Shown: positions 1,391 through 9,700, counted from the first letter of the stretch. The stretch: DNA of 32,406 nucleotides from a virus (IMGVR_UViG_3300010391_000184:1-32406), one strand, 5' to 3'. Program-made: numbers and translations. The notes: generated by a model not told the origin, from the sequence alone.

Positions 1391-1426
1391 GAATAAATGA
1401 TAAAGATACTTTACAACACCGAAAAG

Positions 1427-1529
1427 GACAGAGACAGTCGGGCCGTGTCGAGGACAGAGACAGTCGGGCCGTGTCGAGGACAGAGACAGTCGGGCCGTGT
1501 CGAGGACAGAGACAGTCGGGCCGTGTCGA
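1427..1529. repeat. 26-bp tandem repeat, four copies
   Basis: Four consecutive near-perfect copies of a 26-base unit (GACAGAGACAGTCGGGCCGT followed by GTCGAG); the last copy is truncated. The sequence is unrelated to the CCAGGGG arrays. It begins directly after the stop of the smallest membrane-peptide gene (1535). Short forward frames across it are artefacts of the repeat. Between 1391 and 1426 there is only A/T-rich DNA without a recognised feature. Confidence 0.93.
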
Positions 1530-1534
1530 TGTCC

Positions 1535-1621
1535 CTACAAACAGCCCAGAATAGCAACAAAAAACAATACCAACATCACAACCACAACCAGGAATAGAAA
1601 ATCAAGAATTGCAGATCGCAC
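1535..1621 (-). CDS. Very small hydrophobic peptide, 28 aa, one membrane segment
   Basis: A GTG-started frame encodes a peptide with a continuous hydrophobic stretch (FLFLVVVVMLVLFFVAIL, about residues 8-25), a single predicted transmembrane helix. A GAGGT ribosome-site match lies 8 bases before the GTG, inside the last codons of the preceding gene, and the gap to that gene is 4 bases. It would be the last gene of the long leftward operon. Function is unknown; small phage membrane peptides can be lysis or exclusion factors, but nothing here shows that. Confidence 0.4.
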   Translation of the reverse strand: MRSAILDFLFLVVVVMLVLFFVAILGCL

Positions 1622-2895: not shown

Positions 2896-3441
2896 CTATA
2901 CAACTTCGCCAGTACAAAGCTGATCGGGCAATTCAGGCCAAGCATCAGCACGATCGTCCGGGAACTCCTCAACCTCTCCCGGCAGAACATCCTGGAAAAA
3001 CTCCACATCCTCCTGCAACGGGTGACAGACGTGTCGCTTCCCAAGAATGCGCTTCACATCATCAAACACCAAGTCCCACTTACGACCATTGCCAGCCACA
3101 ACCGCCCGATCATCAATGTACACATCGGCTAGGGGCTTCGCAATCCCAGTAAACACTTGGTGGTACGAGAACCCGGCACCGTCCAACCACTCCCGGACGT
3201 TCCCCTCGAGCGCGGCCACCACACTATCGGAAGCGGTAACACCAGCCAACTCAGGATTACATCTGCACGTATAAATGATCACTGTACCCATTTCGTACAG
3301 ATGTCGCACGAACGTGACGGCACCGACTACCGGAAGTCCGAAATGACGTATGCCCTTAAACGAATCAAAACTACACAACACACCATCCAGGTCAACCGCA
3401 ATCACAGGACGGTTCACGAGTAAACCATCATCTTCGCTCAT
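2896..3441 (-). CDS. HAD-family phosphatase, 181 aa
   Basis: HAD motif I is seen as VDLDGVLCSFD (about residues 16-26), a motif II-like YTCR (about 57-60), and the acidic motif III/IV region KPLADVYIDDRA (about 102-113). The size and motif spacing resemble small phage HAD proteins such as 5'-nucleotidases or the 3'-phosphatase part of polynucleotide kinase; the substrate cannot be decided. The last 50 residues form an acidic extension (EDVEFF, EEFPDDRADAWPE). The ATG overlaps the stop of the beta-helix gene as ATGA. Confidence 0.82.
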   Translation of the reverse strand: MSEDDGLLVNRPVIAVDLDGVLCSFDSFKGIRHFGLPVVGAVTFVRHLYEMGTVIIYTCRCNPELAGVTASDSVVAALEGNVREWLDGAGFSYHQVFTGIAKPLADVYIDDRAVVAGNGRKWDLVFDDVKRILGKRHVCHPLQEDVEFFQDVLPGEVEEFPDDRADAWPELPDQLCTGEVV

Positions 3442-4007
3442 CTTCGCTTCCTCACTTTTTCAACATTGCCTACCACACTATTATCGGTACAACCGACAAC
3501 ATCTTCCGACACATATGCATCACTTATCCTAATACGCGAATTGATATGCGAATTCCCGCACACAACTGCATATCCAGAAATCCTAGCTCTCCCTTCTACA
3601 AACGCACTATCCAAAATCCTCGCATGGCCAGTAATAATAGCATCACCACCAATGATAGCATGACCAGAAACCACAGCCCATTTACAAACGATGGCATTGC
3701 CACGTATCACAGCAAAATCCTTAATGACGACGCGTCCAGTAATCCTAGCATCACCAAAAACTCTTGCACTATCCGAAATCCTTGTGAATTTAATTACTTG
3801 TGCCGACCCACCCACAAAAGCCAAATCTGACACTACTGAAGCTCTTTCTATGTGCGCGGTAAGTTCAACCTGTGCAGTATCCTGTACCCAACCTCCACCA
3901 TTCCCGTGTCTATGCCAACCAACAGGCAAAACAGGTAGGAAGGAATGATACTTTCGAGCAAGAATCCAGGACTTCTCGTCAGGAAGAAATTTCAACAACT
4001 GTGCCAA
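3438..4007 (-). CDS. Left-handed beta-helix (hexapeptide-like repeat) protein, about 189 aa
   Basis: After an N-terminal segment with GWHRHGNGGGWVQ (about residues 30-42), the protein is a run of six-residue-like turns with aliphatic residues every second or third position (for example RISDSARVFGDARITGRVVI). This is the pattern of the parallel beta-helix found in hexapeptide transferases and YdcK-like proteins. Catalytic residues are not evident, so a structural or binding role is as likely. I place the start at the TTG at 4007, which has AGGAG 7 bases upstream; a TTG at 4022 is also in frame. The start overlaps the Rad50 C-half gene by 29 bases. Confidence 0.65.
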   Translation of the reverse strand: MAQLLKFLPDEKSWILARKYHSFLPVLPVGWHRHGNGGGWVQDTAQVELTAHIERASVVSDLAFVGGSAQVIKFTRISDSARVFGDARITGRVVIKDFAVIRGNAIVCKWAVVSGHAIIGGDAIITGHARILDSAFVEGRARISGYAVVCGNSHINSRIRISDAYVSEDVVGCTDNSVVGNVEKVRKRR

Positions 4008-4557
4008 TCCTGAACTCCTCAATATGAGTTACCAACACTATCTGAATATGCAATTCCTCTGCTAGCTTCACCAACAACTCTGCTAATCTCTCCCGGTACT
4101 CCTGTGACACGAACTTGAATGGCTCGTCAAGCACCAACACCTTAGCAACCTTCGAACCTGCTAGGACTAGAGCTGCCAATCTCAACGCGAAAGCTGATAC
4201 ATCCACCACGCCTCCTCCAGACGCACTCATCGGATCCACTTCATTGCCATTTCTTAGAAATGCCAACTCCACTTCGGTCCGCCCACGTTTCTCCACGAAC
4301 CTCATCACAAACTCATATGGCTCATCGAAAATGGCCTGCAAGCATCTGGACACCACTGCGGCAACACAACTGTACATCCTAGTCTGTACTAGCTTAGCCA
4401 CCGATTGTACAACCTGCTGTGCTGTAATGGAATCACGAACTCGATTCTTAATTCTGTTCAGGTTCTGCTTCTCCTCCACCAACGACTTACGAAGTCGCGA
4501 TAGCTCTGCCACAGCTGTGTTCGTGACAACACGATAATTCCTTAATGTACCCGACAT
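3979..4557 (-). CDS. Rad50/SbcC-like ATPase, C-terminal half, 192 aa
   Basis: The protein holds only the C-terminal half of an SMC/Rad50-type ATPase: a coiled-coil entry (about residues 15-60), the ABC signature SASGGGVVDVSAFALRLAAL (about 111-130), Walker B VLVLDEP (about 140-146) and the D-/H-loop region LVTHIEE (about 175-181). It has no Walker A. The matching N-terminal half is encoded separately at 5764-6783, on the other side of the Mre11-like gene. The two should pair to make one ATPase head working with Mre11 in double-strand-end processing, as T4 gp46/gp47 do. The ATG at 4557 is chosen; a GTG at 4566 just after the upstream stop is possible. Confidence 0.82.
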   Translation of the reverse strand: MSGTLRNYRVVTNTAVAELSRLRKSLVEEKQNLNRIKNRVRDSITAQQVVQSVAKLVQTRMYSCVAAVVSRCLQAIFDEPYEFVMRFVEKRGRTEVELAFLRNGNEVDPMSASGGGVVDVSAFALRLAALVLAGSKVAKVLVLDEPFKFVSQEYRERLAELLVKLAEELHIQIVLVTHIEEFRIGTVVEISS

Positions 4558-4565
4558 GGCTACCA

Positions 4566-4865
4566 CTAGCTCAGCTTATCCAACTCCCGCAACTTTTCAC
4601 CCCAACGTTCCTCAAAGTTCGCCAGTTGTGCTTTATAGTCGGATTCCAACTTCTCCAACTCTCCGCCCATTTCACGCAGCTTCTCCACACCCTCCCCCAG
4701 ACTAGCACAACCCCATTGCGTCTTGAGTTCCTCGGTCAACTTTTCTACCACACCAGCCGCCCGTTCCGCTTTCGCCCTGCAGGCATCCACTCGCTTCTTC
4801 AATGCCATCAACTGCTCGGTTCCGTCCGTACTAAATCGCGCCGTCCTGAATTCCTCCGCACTCAT
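4566..4865 (-). CDS. Small coiled-coil protein, 99 aa
   Basis: Residues about 15-95 are strongly helical with heptad spacing (LMALKKRVDACRAKAERAA, then LEKLESDYKAQLANFEERWG), interrupted by TQWGCASLGEG (about 49-59). No enzymatic motif is seen. It starts with ATGA overlap at the end of the Mre11-like gene, with GGAGG 7 bases before, and ends 8 bases before the Rad50 C-half. Its place suggests that it supplies part of the second coiled-coil arm, or a subunit, of the split Rad50 complex; this is inference. It has no CxxC to complete a zinc hook itself. Confidence 0.7.
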   Translation of the reverse strand: MSAEEFRTARFSTDGTEQLMALKKRVDACRAKAERAAGVVEKLTEELKTQWGCASLGEGVEKLREMGGELEKLESDYKAQLANFEERWGEKLRELDKLS

Positions 4866-5794
4866 GCAAACGCCTCCTGTACAATCTCCCCCACAGATTC
4901 CGGATGCTTACGCAACTCCTTACGCAGTGCCTCGCGGAAGTCCAGCGGGTCCGCCTCCAAGCTAGCTAGCTGTCCCATAAACGAATCAAAATCTGCACCA
5001 GGCTCGGCCTCAAACGACGACGGCACCTCCATCTTGTCCTTGTCCGTGTCCAAATAGTGCAACTTAACCTTACCTGAACTATACAACACACCAACTCGGG
5101 GACGATAATCTACCTCAGCTGCCGTCCTTCTGAAGAACGTCCCGCAGTTCAACAAACCATCAACAAGAAATCCCTTATGATTATCACCAAACACCGCGAA
5201 GCTGTACCCACTAAGGAGAGATTTGAAACGTCGAACATGTGATTCGTTCCCAACACCAGGATAACCATTCTCGCTCCTGCACCAAACAAACGCATGCACC
5301 ACAGCAAGTGAAAAGTCAGGTCCATCGTCCTGCAACTGTGGCACGAACTTTATAGGCTCATCCCAACCGAATCCAAATGCCTTCAACTTGCCAATACGAA
5401 GCCCGAGTGGAGAGAGTAACGTAACCTTTCCTGCACTTACTAATGTCCAGAATGCGCTTCGTTTGATCAGATCGAGCCGGTGGTAGGGTAGATCGTGTTG
5501 CCCAGGAACAGCAAACATACCAGGTAATCGTTCAATCGCAAAGTTTATCAGTGCAGGGGGACTATTCCATCTATCGAAAACGTCGCCCGCACAAATGATA
5601 GGCAAGGCAGGGCAAAAAGACTTCGCTAACATACCCAACTGATCCAACTGCCTACCCATTGCCTCAAACCAACCTGAGTAGTCAGACCCGGATGGCTGCT
5701 CGTTCTCCAACCTTCTGCATACGGGCGGGGACGACGACAAATGGATATCAGCACAAAGTATGGCTATCGGATCGCCTGACCGCAGAGAGGACAT
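4862..5794 (-). CDS. Mre11/SbcD-like nuclease (T4 gp47-like), 310 aa
   Basis: A calcineurin-like metallophosphoesterase with the expected metal-ligand motifs in order: ADIHLS (residues 15-20), GDVFDRW (70-76), GQHD (98-101, in place of GNHD), VVHAF (165-169) and GDNHKGF (203-209, in place of GHxH). This is the Mre11/SbcD/gp47 type that pairs with Rad50-like ATPases to process DNA ends. The C-terminal 70 residues are helical and probably bind the ATPase coiled coil. The gene starts 31 bases inside the end of the Rad50 N-half and is followed by the small coiled-coil gene and the Rad50 C-half. Confidence 0.88.
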   Translation of the reverse strand: MSSLRSGDPIAILCADIHLSSSPPVCRRLENEQPSGSDYSGWFEAMGRQLDQLGMLAKSFCPALPIICAGDVFDRWNSPPALINFAIERLPGMFAVPGQHDLPYHRLDLIKRSAFWTLVSAGKVTLLSPLGLRIGKLKAFGFGWDEPIKFVPQLQDDGPDFSLAVVHAFVWCRSENGYPGVGNESHVRRFKSLLSGYSFAVFGDNHKGFLVDGLLNCGTFFRRTAAEVDYRPRVGVLYSSGKVKLHYLDTDKDKMEVPSSFEAEPGADFDSFMGQLASLEADPLDFREALRKELRKHPESVGEIVQEAFA

Positions 5795-6783
5795 GAATCA
5801 CCTAACCTTTCTGTGTAATCGGCCTGTAGTGGAACCAATTCATCCTGCAACCGCTTAGCCGCTAATCTAGCCCCCTTAACATCGTCTATCATGTTCTTCA
5901 AACAATCATAACTACCAGCCGCCACACGTCTACTGGATTCGGACTCCTCCAGAACAGCGAGGCAATTAGGTGGGACTCGCGGCACACTCGCGAGCCGCCT
6001 GAGTTGATCCACAACTGCACGCAAACGCAGTACGGATGACGACAACTTTTCGTGACGCGCCCACGACTCTAATGCACCATCACCTGCCCTAGCAATCTTA
6101 GCACAAGATTCATTCACAAACCGACTACCTTTCAATCTCCCCAACAAGTCAGTCAGTTCATTAACAGAAGAACCAGCTTCCAGTATTGCCTCGTTGGCCC
6201 GCTCCAGTTCCGACAACTCCTTATCAAGATCGGTTGCGAACTGCCATTCTTCAACACGATCCTTCAACTGCCGTCGTCTCTCCTTCACTGAATCATACTC
6301 GGCCCGAGACTTACGAGCCCCAGCAACGAGCTTCGATAGTACTGAATCAATGATCTCCAGATTAACAATTCGATTGAGACTTCTTGCCACCTCTCCGGCT
6401 GTACTACTCAACCAGAATGGTGAATCATACTGACCCTGGAAGTTTATGTCAGCCAATCCAAGAGCGGATTGGATTTCAGGAGGTACGCCGTTCCCGAATG
6501 CACGAAACTCCTTGCCATCCAGTTTGTAGATATTCTCACCGCCGCGTTCTCTTACCACCGACACACCACTAGACAACTTCAGACGAACTTGAGACCCGCT
6601 AGAACCCCAACGAACAAACTCCTCACCTGACGGCTCATTCGTAGCAAGCCACCGAATCGCCCTAATAACCGAACTCTTGCCAGAATCTGTGGGACCGACA
6701 ATCGCTGTGACACCAGCATCGAATGCGATACCAAAGTCCTCGTGTGCCTGGAAGTTCTTAATCCTCAAACTATCGAGTAGCAT
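5764..6783 (-). CDS. Rad50/SbcC-like ATPase, N-terminal half with zinc hook, 339 aa
   Basis: The N-terminus is the SMC/Rad50 head: LRIKNFQAHEDF (residues 6-17), Walker A GPTDSGKS (30-37) and a Q-loop-like INFQGQYDSPFWL region (about 117-129). A long coiled coil follows (about 150-325). The protein then ends only five residues after a CPLC zinc-hook motif (331-334). A complete Rad50 would turn at the hook and return to the Walker B half; here that half is a separate gene at 3979-4557. The ATG at 6783 has AGGA 8 bases upstream and lies just after the stop of the nuclease-like gene at 6798. Confidence 0.86.
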   Translation of the reverse strand: MLLDSLRIKNFQAHEDFGIAFDAGVTAIVGPTDSGKSSVIRAIRWLATNEPSGEEFVRWGSSGSQVRLKLSSGVSVVRERGGENIYKLDGKEFRAFGNGVPPEIQSALGLADINFQGQYDSPFWLSSTAGEVARSLNRIVNLEIIDSVLSKLVAGARKSRAEYDSVKERRRQLKDRVEEWQFATDLDKELSELERANEAILEAGSSVNELTDLLGRLKGSRFVNESCAKIARAGDGALESWARHEKLSSSVLRLRAVVDQLRRLASVPRVPPNCLAVLEESESSRRVAAGSYDCLKNMIDDVKGARLAAKRLQDELVPLQADYTERLGDSCPLCGQAIR

Positions 6784-6797
6784 AAACAGCGTCCTAA

Positions 6798-7346
6798 TCA
6801 AATATCTTCCGGCTTCAGCCATTGTAGAAAGTCAGACAACTTCATTACCACCCAATTCCCCCTCCCACATGAAGCAAGTCGTACAATCAATCGCTTGTGC
6901 ATCGGTCTCTTCTTCATCCCAGCCAATTTAGAATACAACCTGTCTTCGAAGCAAACCAATACATCCTTACCCAAACGACGAAATATCAACACACCTATTC
7001 CACCTGAACGCCGGCAATGCTCACACAACTTCACCAACCACTTCGACATCATGCCACCAGTATCGCTGTCGATAAGTGATGTAAAATCCACATTACGATA
7101 ACCGGTTTTCAATTCGAACGTGAACATAGTAGTGAGTCGGGAAGCAATTGTCTCGGTAGCGGTAATATCGCCCACTTGTCCTGGGGTGGCTTTACCTTTC
7201 TTAGCACGCTGGGTAGCACGAGCGCCACTAGTCTGAGTACGCCAGAACACATCATCACGCTTTCCATACGTCCACCAGAGGCTCAATTGCTTGCAAATCT
7301 TCCGCTCGAACTTACTGCCCTTAGCATGTCCGCCGCCAGGTTTCAT
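6798..7346 (-). CDS. PD-(D/E)XK-like nuclease, 182 aa
   Basis: Residues 8-15 (AKGSKFER) provide the conserved Glu of an N-terminal helix, and GQVGDI (about 56-61) followed by TFELKTGY (about 75-82) gives the D...ExK core of the PD-(D/E)XK nuclease fold. Phage proteins of this type serve as Holliday-junction resolvases, recombination nucleases or restriction-like enzymes; which one applies is not clear. The C-terminal half (IGVLIFRRLG, KRLIVRLAS) is beta-rich. The ATG overlaps the preceding gene's stop as ATGA and has GGGAGGG upstream, so I prefer it to the longer frame starting at 7394. Confidence 0.65.
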   Translation of the reverse strand: MKPGGGHAKGSKFERKICKQLSLWWTYGKRDDVFWRTQTSGARATQRAKKGKATPGQVGDITATETIASRLTTMFTFELKTGYRNVDFTSLIDSDTGGMMSKWLVKLCEHCRRSGGIGVLIFRRLGKDVLVCFEDRLYSKLAGMKKRPMHKRLIVRLASCGRGNWVVMKLSDFLQWLKPEDI

Positions 7347-7723
7347 ATCACATCCCTCCCACCTATCCCACACCGCTCCCGATGTGAGAGACAACCTTCA
7401 CAACCAATCTTGAATTCACGGCACGTTGTCGGTCGATGCTCGTAATGGCGGCAACGCCGTGTCGCTTCATCGTACCAGAGGCAGGGTGTGTCATCGTTCA
7501 GCGTTCGATCAGGGATCGTCTCAGCGACAAACACTCCGTAGTAGTACGCGGCAAGTTCTGCTTTTAGCCCGGCCGGCATGTCGCGGAAGATTTCCCAGTT
7601 ATACGACATTTCCATTTCTCGTTGCGACCAAGTGCCGAAGAACATCGCAAAGTCCGGCGGCGTCCCCATATGCGTACAACAGGCTCCGCAGTTGTCACAA
7701 TTCAATACGGACAATGAAGTCAC
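7343..7723 (-). CDS. YkgJ-type cysteine-cluster protein, 126 aa
   Basis: The cysteine pattern CDNCGACC (about residues 9-16), PCLWYDEATRRCRHYEHRP (about 80-98) with CREF after it, and a C-terminal CEGC is that of the YkgJ/UPF0153 family, thought to bind Zn or an Fe-S cluster. The biochemical role of the family is unsettled. The GTG start overlaps the FEN-like nuclease stop as GTGA, with GAGG 6 bases upstream. It sits between two nuclease genes, hinting at a DNA-metabolism role, but that is only context. Confidence 0.78.
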   Translation of the reverse strand: MTSLSVLNCDNCGACCTHMGTPPDFAMFFGTWSQREMEMSYNWEIFRDMPAGLKAELAAYYYGVFVAETIPDRTLNDDTPCLWYDEATRRCRHYEHRPTTCREFKIGCEGCLSHRERCGIGGRDVI

Positions 7724-8667
7724 GCCACACCTCTCTTCCTCTTACGCTGCCGATCGGCAATGGAAAAATGACCGGAGAGAATCGTCTGCCATTCGATAGC
7801 CCCCAGTCCCGCCAACAATCCGGGCATCGCAAAGGATAAGATACGAAACTTCTCTCTATCCCAACCTGGAATTCGAGGTTTGATAGATGGCGTACCTGGA
7901 TAGGGCAAGCGAACCAGCTGGCTCTGACGATCCATAAATACCTTGCACGACTTCGCGGAATCTATGGCCGTCAACTTCGCCTTCGATTTCAGTTTACCAG
8001 TAAGATACTTCACCGCTGTCTTTTCTCCCACACCTTCGATGCCCCGGACATCATCCCCATGACAACCAGCCAATTCCTTAACATCCGCCCACTGCCAAGG
8101 GTTGATGTCGTACTGCTGGTGAAAGGTCCGCATGTCCACACGTCTACCTGAAGTAGGATTGAACCAGATAGTTTTGGAACCCACACACTGCCACAAGTCC
8201 TGGTCAGCAGTAACTATCACGTGGTTATCCATAAGTGGCGTAGAAGCAGTAGCTGAAGCAATTAGATCGTCCGCCTCATAACCCTGCTCTTCAAAACACG
8301 GAATACCCAAATACTCCAAATACTTACGTCGCAACTCGTCCATCTGATTGCGCAGAGTAAGTTTGTCCTGGAGTTCCCCATGCTTCGTCATCAACCGCTT
8401 CGTCTTGTAGGATGGGAAAATTGCACGACGCAGAAGAGTCCGTGAATCAAAAAACAAGTTCACCAGATTACTTCGGCAATTCTGGTCGAGGCAGATGTGA
8501 CGCAACTGATCGAGAACAATGAATGCCAGCAAATCCAGTGTATCTGGACCCCACTTATCCCGCAGCGTCCACCTCGCTCGGTACACCAGCCAATTCCCGT
8601 CCACTAGGAGCCAGGTCCTCGGAGTATTTTGGCTTGCGCTTTGGTCTTGCTGCTCGCTCAATTTCAT
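7720..8667 (-). CDS. FEN-like 5'-3' exonuclease, about 315 aa
   Basis: Family motifs are in order: LLVDGNWLVYRA (residues 20-31, first metal Asp), FFDS (72-75), YEADDLIA (130-137), TADQDLWQ (153-160) and a helix-3-turn-helix GDDVRGIEGVGEKTAVKY (about 205-222). This is the 5'-nuclease fold of Pol I N-domains and T4 RNase H/T5 D15, used to remove RNA primers and flaps. The polymerase in this window lacks such a domain, so this protein would supply it. The ATG at 8667 has GGAG 10 bases upstream; the gene overlaps the end of the RecA-like gene by 113 bases, and the essential first motif lies inside the overlap. Confidence 0.9.
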   Translation of the reverse strand: MKLSEQQDQSASQNTPRTWLLVDGNWLVYRARWTLRDKWGPDTLDLLAFIVLDQLRHICLDQNCRSNLVNLFFDSRTLLRRAIFPSYKTKRLMTKHGELQDKLTLRNQMDELRRKYLEYLGIPCFEEQGYEADDLIASATASTPLMDNHVIVTADQDLWQCVGSKTIWFNPTSGRRVDMRTFHQQYDINPWQWADVKELAGCHGDDVRGIEGVGEKTAVKYLTGKLKSKAKLTAIDSAKSCKVFMDRQSQLVRLPYPGTPSIKPRIPGWDREKFRILSFAMPGLLAGLGAIEWQTILSGHFSIADRQRKRKRGVA

Positions 8668-9700
8668 GCCAGCACTTCTCCACTTCTCTCCGCAACTTCC
8701 GTACCAGATTCCGTTTTTCAATAATCCGAATCAACTTGTGTCGGACCAACACCAAATCCAGAGATCGAGCGTTGATCTTGTTGCCTCTTTGCGGCCACCA
8801 CTTCTCCGACACCAAATAGTCTATGCACGATCCGATATCGTCTATACCGTATTGAGGGTAGATATCGAACCCCACTTCATACAAAGCTCCAAGCACGCGA
8901 TTCTTCTTCACTTTCCATTCTACAGACACACCCAACTGCCTGGACGATCCACGAATGTTTTTCTTGATCGTGCCCACCACCGACGCCCAGAGCTCGAGTG
9001 TAGCATAGAACCGTAAAGCATGCCCGCCGGAACGAGTCTTCTTGTTGAAACCCCAGCCGAGATTCGCCCTTGTCTGGGAAAGGATCAACAACATCGAATC
9101 CGTCCTGCGAAGATCACGAAGTACTTTACGCAACCCCTGCGAATTCTGTCTTGCTTTGTTGGTGCCATATGAACCAGTGGCATCCTTTCCCCCACGTACT
9201 GCGCGCTTGTTCTTATCGAACTTCTTGTCCTCCTCATCGGATGTCAGCGCATCCATCGAATCAAGCACATAAATGAACGGCTTGCCCTCCTTTACAGCAT
9301 CGTCAAGATTGAAATACAATTCCTCCACAGTAGAACTGTACATGGGCATGGAATCAGTATCCACTGCGGGAGGCTCGAGACGACGTTCAAGCTCAGCATG
9401 GAACAGGGACTTCAGATCGAACAAACAACCATCCTCTACGTTGTCATATATCAATCTGTAGTCATCGAAGGTAGGATTGAGACAAGCCTCGGCGAGACAA
9501 CTCACTGCCAAGAACGTCTTACCAGCCGAAGCATCACCAACACACAGATGATACTTACCTACCAACAATCCGCCGTTGCGAGAACCGGAACAAGCCAAAT
9601 TCAGCAATGTGGACCCGGTAGGAACAAATCTGGCTGGATTCTCATCCACTTGTGGATCGACTACCGATTCCGCCGCCGCTATCATCTCTCCGCTCGTCAT
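8555..9700 (-). CDS. RecA/UvsX-like recombinase, 381 aa
   Basis: Walker A GDASAGKT is at residues 55-62, Walker B FIYVLDSMD at 142-150, and the loop region LLILSQTRANLGWGF (204-218) followed by TRSGGHALRFYATLELW matches the RecA/UvsX core. It should form filaments on ssDNA and drive strand exchange, working with the gp32-like protein encoded just upstream. The C-terminus is basic (KRKPKYSED) and runs 113 bases into the FEN-like gene. A 114-base gap with a GC-rich hairpin separates it from the ssDNA-binding-protein gene. Confidence 0.9.
   Translation of the reverse strand: MTSGEMIAAAESVVDPQVDENPARFVPTGSTLLNLACSGSRNGGLLVGKYHLCVGDASAGKTFLAVSCLAEACLNPTFDDYRLIYDNVEDGCLFDLKSLFHAELERRLEPPAVDTDSMPMYSSTVEELYFNLDDAVKEGKPFIYVLDSMDALTSDEEDKKFDKNKRAVRGGKDATGSYGTNKARQNSQGLRKVLRDLRRTDSMLLILSQTRANLGWGFNKKTRSGGHALRFYATLELWASVVGTIKKNIRGSSRQLGVSVEWKVKKNRVLGALYEVGFDIYPQYGIDDIGSCIDYLVSEKWWPQRGNKINARSLDLVLVRHKLIRIIEKRNLVRKLRREVEKCWHEIERAARPKRKPKYSEDLAPSGRELAGVPSEVDAAG

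Follow-up and report, generated by a model that had tools for sequence, protein, structure and literature searches.

A split Rad50 in phages and Bacillota whose N-terminal chain ends at the zinc hook

Four successive genes of a virus contig very probably encode an Mre11–Rad50 end-processing complex of the SbcCD or gp46–gp47 type, in which Rad50 is made from separate pieces. The contig, IMGVR_UViG_3300010391_000184, was analysed over its whole 32,406 nt (the window). Its Rad50 is divided into an N-terminal protein (RadN), a C-terminal protein (RadC) and, probably, a small coiled-coil protein (cc). RadN, Mre11, cc and RadC were found together, split at the same place, in more than 80 distinct loci, carried by Bacillus and Microcystis phages, by one phage of 485 kb, by prophages and by the chromosomes of Bacillota. 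We consider the split to be real, and to represent a known complex in a new architecture that occurs widely. No description of a split Rad50 or SbcC was found in the open-access literature, subscription papers and preprints lying outside the search.

Results

The locus in the window

RadN, Mre11, cc and RadC are successive genes on the minus strand (Table 1) and, according to the ORF calls, all overlap or almost touch. The ATG of Mre11 lies within the codons of the RadN hook, the end of Mre11 and the start of cc have an ATGA in common, and the stop codon of cc overlaps a possible GTG start of RadC at position 4566. The RadN ORF has an alternative start at 6822. Mre11 and cc thus separate RadN from RadC. 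The preliminary description had reported four ORFs, split halves and intervening genes, and all are present as stated, on the minus strand. In addition to the upstream genes listed in Table 1, the window contains a clamp loader, a DNA polymerase, a primase and helicases, a replication and recombination setting. A gene for a beta-solenoid (hexapeptide-like) protein at 3438-4022 (-) overlaps the end of RadC.

Table 1. Positions of the split complex and its upstream neighbours in the window, and of three fusion genes in other loci
Feature	Record	Position	Strand	Length and matches
RadN: N-lobe, Walker A, arm, zinc hook	window	6783-5764	-	339 aa; PF13476 AAA_23 9.8e-15
Mre11/SbcD-like nuclease	window	5794-4862	-	PF00149 1.1e-5 (weak); Mre11 profiles from relatives
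cc: two-helix coiled-coil protein	window	4865-4566	-	99 aa; family profile, AF2
RadC: return-coil base, signature, Walker B, H-loop	window	4557-3979	-	192 aa; phrog_15167 'ATPase' 4.9e-21
RusA-like / PDDEXK nuclease (context; directly upstream of RadN)	window	6798..7394	-	phrog_244 8.4e-13; PF24608 3.3e-17
5'-3' exonuclease (context)	window	7720..8721	-	PF02739 3.2e-20
UvsX/RecA-like recombinase (context)	window	8555..9700	-	phrog_97 2.7e-37
Armless Mre11-RadN-RadC fusion	L136	6264-8318	+	
Armless Mre11-RadN-RadC fusion	L137	7652-9754	-	
Armless Mre11-RadN-RadC fusion	L138	7583-9670	-	

RadN and its terminal hook

RadN has the Walker A motif GPTDSGKS and is matched by PHROG family 16465, 'exonuclease'. 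It aligns to positions 1-79 of the 878-position NCBIfam archaeal Rad50 model and RadC to positions 693-857, the two halves matching opposite ends of the NCBIfam Rad50 models; the window scored 46.5 bits, below the curated cut-off of 700. The RadN C terminus reads ...DSCPLCGQAIR, with the stop codon five residues past the CPLC hook. A CxxC motif was terminal in 95 of 97 distinct complete RadN sequences, which had a median of 10 residues beyond it. These data bear out the earlier claim that the hook lies at the end of a chain.

In a single-chain AlphaFold2 (AF2) model of RadN (60 rows; pLDDT 86.8, pTM 0.46), the N-lobe is followed by helices at residues 142-179, 182-266 and 275-327 and then by the hook, and the loop at 267-274 is a possible place for the arm to turn back. 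Among relatives, the arm ranges from 138 to 341 aa. According to Foldseek, the modelled N-lobe resembles Rad50, SMC and RecF heads, and the best PDB match of RadN was 1f2u_A, a Rad50 ABC-ATPase chain of 149 residues. In this entry, the N part of the head is likewise its own chain and the C part is presumably the second chain. Unlike the split form, however, 1F2U is a construct made in the laboratory and has neither arm nor hook.

RadC and Mre11

RadC carries the signature SASGGG, the Walker B motif VLVLDEP and the H-loop VTH, and also matches the C-terminal part of phrog_77 SbcC (positions 871-933 of 967). PHROG 15167 and PHROG 16465 are two separate families with no stated link to a split Rad50. 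The RadC motifs coincide with columns conserved over 58 distinct rows, and LDE was kept in most relatives. In the signature of the window, SGGG, S-G-G is retained and the last residue is G instead of E/Q; the signature serine is often replaced in relatives, by Arg in 40 of 78 loci. RadC falls into two ORFs in one metagenomic contig (L031, 12210-12845).

The Mre11 motifs of the window are ADIH, GDVFD, GQHD and GDNHKG. In 22 loci, the window among them, motif III reads GQHD, and in 51 it reads GNHD. The altered RadC signature and Mre11 motif III may change the handling of ATP and metal. Profiles detected an Mre11 gene in the window as well as in most other loci of sufficient extent, and found none in L069, L071 and L086. 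As a lone query, the Mre11 of the window had no match in Microbacterium phage Magritte, a single-query search that carries little weight.

Distribution and gene order

A six-row RadN alignment retrieved 79 loci from viral contigs; scans of the same contigs with single proteins (RadN, RadC or the RadN of Bacillus phage vB_BboS-125) yielded one or zero new loci, and further alignments lacked a segment of sufficient conservation to serve as a query. Profiles detected the common architecture in nearly all viral loci that extend far enough. An alignment of Bacillota RadC proteins, searched against bacterial genomes, added 28 loci, including one on the complete chromosome of Carboxydocella thermautotrophica, and the split complex thus occurs beyond phages. 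The 485-kb phage LR745208 carries the split Rad50, and the gene order of Microcystis phage Mvi-JY20 is identical to that of the window. In vB_BboS-125 the order is RadN, an AP2-domain gene, cc, RadC, Mre11. The pieces are scattered in Magritte (L005, L007): its RadN is hookless and, in the linear record, separated from RadC by ~93 kb, and a cc-like stretch occurs inside a 347-aa frame at 127.2 kb.

Three gene orders were observed in 83 loci: N-M-cc-C (40 loci, the order of the window, which had been sought in related phage genomes), N-cc-C-M (25) and M-N-cc-C (18). The succession of RadN, cc and RadC is constant, and Mre11 alone shifts. In a joined-protein tree (FastTree, midpoint root), the N-cc-C-M and M-N-cc-C loci each formed one group, with support of 0.98 and 0.99, respectively. 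Therefore, few moves of Mre11 account for all orders, and the initial view that the arrangement is hard to explain by one simple break is not supported in that form. Pairwise distances of the four families were correlated (r 0.71-0.86, Mantel p 0.001), a correlation that shared ancestry alone would produce at least in part.

A second Rad50 N-domain was found in none of ten carrier records, among them the complete genomes of vB_BboS-125, Magritte and Mvi-JY20 and the 485-kb LR745208; in each, the single AAA_23 match was RadN. The window, a 32.4-kb virus contig that is perhaps incomplete, likewise has one AAA_23 match only. A second, intact Rad50 elsewhere, which would have undermined the split, was accordingly rejected for the carrier records examined. 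Nor can resequencing join the halves, because two other conserved genes stand between them. Since other genes intervene, an intein or intron between the halves was also rejected.

RadN and RadC as parts of one head

In a sample of 398 genomes of the Carboxydocella phylum, RadC was found in 66 at a threshold of E <= 1e-15, as a stand-alone protein in 63 and fused in 3. The three fusions are Mre11-RadN-RadC proteins of ~690 aa without arm, CxxC or adjacent cc gene (Table 1). Such natural fusions argue that both halves are part of one ATPase head. Each fusion gene lies directly upstream of an addB-looking gene of 1150-1170 aa.

None of 12 genomes whose split or fusion is chromosomal contained canonical SbcC (TIGR00618); all three with a prophage-type split locus did. 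Across the 398 genomes, canonical SbcC was detected in 177, in a search that scored few candidates per genome, split RadC in 66 and both in 4. SbcC was thus present in 4 and absent from 62 of the RadC genomes, versus 173 and 159 of the remainder (Fisher p = 1e-13, the test counting genomes, not independent events). Two of the four genomes with both proteins rest on weak matches. On Bacillota chromosomes, the split form usually stands where canonical one-piece SbcC is missing. Together, co-occurrence, natural fusions and the replacement of canonical SbcC uphold, at the level of sequence, the proposal that the halves form one head.

The chromosomal Bacillota loci either follow NurA and HerA or adjoin recA, recX and rny. 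Two bacterial loci (L141, L115) are NurA-HerA-Mre11-RadN-cc-RadC operons of archaeal-like content; in six others (L097, L098, L099, L111, L094, L100), the split complex is located between recA or recX and rny.

The small coiled-coil protein

In nearly all loci that comprise RadC and its upstream region, a cc profile detected a cc ORF ahead of RadC. Detection extended to loci outside the set from which the profile was built; for some large phages the matches were weak (E 0.02-0.2). Relatives of cc are 75-129 aa long. The AF2 model of cc (pLDDT 91.5) consists of two helices of similar length, residues 3-51 and 56-98; it had no PDB matches in Foldseek, a result that carries no information on the fold. 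A gene for a large clamp-like protein lies between cc and RadC in some large phages (L006 9124-10257; also L080, L085 and L087).

The small protein had been suggested to form part of the return coil. The RadN arm did not vary in length with cc, nor with cc and the RadC coil taken together (rho -0.07, p 0.53), and this independence makes a simple lengthwise pairing of the longer RadN arms with these two pieces impossible. Together with the two similar helices, it leaves the idea of a plain return coil unsupported. Three arrangements are left: a RadN arm that folds on itself, an arm that is partly unpaired, or the binding of more than one cc. That the armless fusions have no adjacent cc gene suggests that cc belongs with the arm, on which it is expected to pack.

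Discussion

The proteins described here share with Rad50, SbcC and T4 gp46, and their partners Mre11, SbcD and gp47, the lobe motifs, a coiled arm, a CxxC hook and an adjacent Mre11 nuclease. Canonical Rad50 and SbcC comprise N-lobe, coil, hook, coil and C-lobe in one polypeptide, whereas the window has separate N and C genes. In the known proteins, including gp46, the hook is in a hairpin turn of one chain; in the split form, the RadN chain stops at the hook and the C-lobe is encoded as a protein of its own, there is an extra small coiled-coil protein and the signature of the window ends in G. Archaea have NurA-HerA-Mre11-Rad50 gene clusters (PMC2288612). In some Bacillota these four functions are likewise united in an operon, with Rad50 as three genes. 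Mre11/Rad50 fusion proteins are also known, including Mimivirus R555 and others, and the fusion in Bacillus phage 0305phi8-36 is reportedly missing one ATPase segment (PMC3175470). The three ~690-aa fusions have the joining order of the R555 type; they differ in being armless and hookless and in belonging to the split family. The arrangement in the window is the opposite of a fusion.

Rad50 has been regarded as a single chain folded back at its zinc hook, and models of DNA tethering rely on the hairpin. Its two lobes together make up a single nucleotide-binding head, ATP causes heads to dimerise, Mre11 sits at the base of the coil and pairs of CxxC motifs share a zinc. In the split complex, RadN would supply the N-lobe and an arm with the zinc hook at its end; the C-lobe and the base of the return coil would come from RadC, and cc would be a two-helix coiled-coil piece acting with the arm. 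RadN and RadC would co-fold into a single ATP-binding head at the arm base, and two such heads would sandwich ATP, Mre11 sitting where the coil starts. A zinc shared by two terminal CxxC motifs could join the arms, and a hook at a free chain end might alter the bridging of DNA, as the preliminary description supposed. The complex would trim or open DNA ends for recombination and replication. We infer that the split complex physically assembles, binds zinc and has ATPase and nuclease activity. By analogy with T4 gp46/gp47, its role in the window is likely to be end processing for recombination and recombination-dependent replication.

The part played by cc is the least certain element of this scheme. 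It is quite possible, if on balance doubtful, that cc is no structural piece of Rad50 but acts as an independent regulator or adaptor, with the arm, Mre11 or a phage replication protein as its binding partner. The independence of its length from the RadN arm, its two similar helices and the clamp-like gene that intervenes before RadC in huge phages would all fit such a role. However, whichever of the three gene orders applies, the cc gene comes after RadN or Mre11 and before RadC, usually with no gene between it and RadC, and it adjoins none of the armless fusions. A bolder proposal, which we hold only tentatively and consider rather unlikely, is that the split proteins constitute a distinct class of Mre11–Rad50: an arm of separate chains, a free-end hook, cc as an exchangeable clasp that closes or stiffens the arm, and a stand-in for SbcC in many Bacillota. 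If cc is such a clasp, the arm or hook could be opened by subunit exchange, which is impossible for a one-chain Rad50.

The assignment to Mre11–Rad50 itself has weaker rivals. RadN and RadC are separate genes, ~93 kb apart in Magritte, and might be two independent ATPase-like proteins without a split head; yet RadN has neither Walker B nor signature and RadC has no Walker A, the two co-occur, and the natural fusions unite N and C lobes with Mre11 in one chain, making this highly improbable. A Lamassu- or MADS-like role in defence or counter-defence in place of recombination is scarcely more probable. PADLOC matched RadN to LmuB and both halves to mad3, but these matches are far weaker than those inside the own family. 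Lamassu LmuB is, moreover, a single-chain, SMC-like protein, whereas the ATPase is split here, and the loci stand among replication and recombination genes in the window and with NurA-HerA or recA on chromosomes. For a split gene in a metagenomic contig, gene breakage, a frameshift or an error of assembly might be suspected. The likelihood of this is negligible: two conserved genes lie between the halves, and the same split recurs in many independent records, among them isolate phages and a complete bacterial chromosome. Sequencing or assembly error is thus refuted by conservation of the split.

As a natural, conserved version of Rad50 with the hook at a chain end, the split Mre11–Rad50 complex offers a ready system for asking what the hairpin does. 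Hook, arm and head are separate proteins that can be mixed, omitted or replaced. Many Bacillota seemingly lack SbcC, and this may be because the single-chain model misses the split protein. PHROG families and small coiled-coil genes currently listed as unknown also gain a suggested function from the present analysis.

Two further features of the window were observed. Its family A DNA polymerase is likewise split over two genes (14890-12343, minus strand): the gene at 14890-13691 encodes a uracil-DNA-glycosylase-like and a 3'-5' exonuclease domain and overlaps by 14 nt that at 13704-12343, which encodes the polymerase domain (PF00476 1.5e-42). At 1397-1560 (+), in a region without clear genes, short repeats encode DRDSRAV- and RTETVGPC-like peptides.
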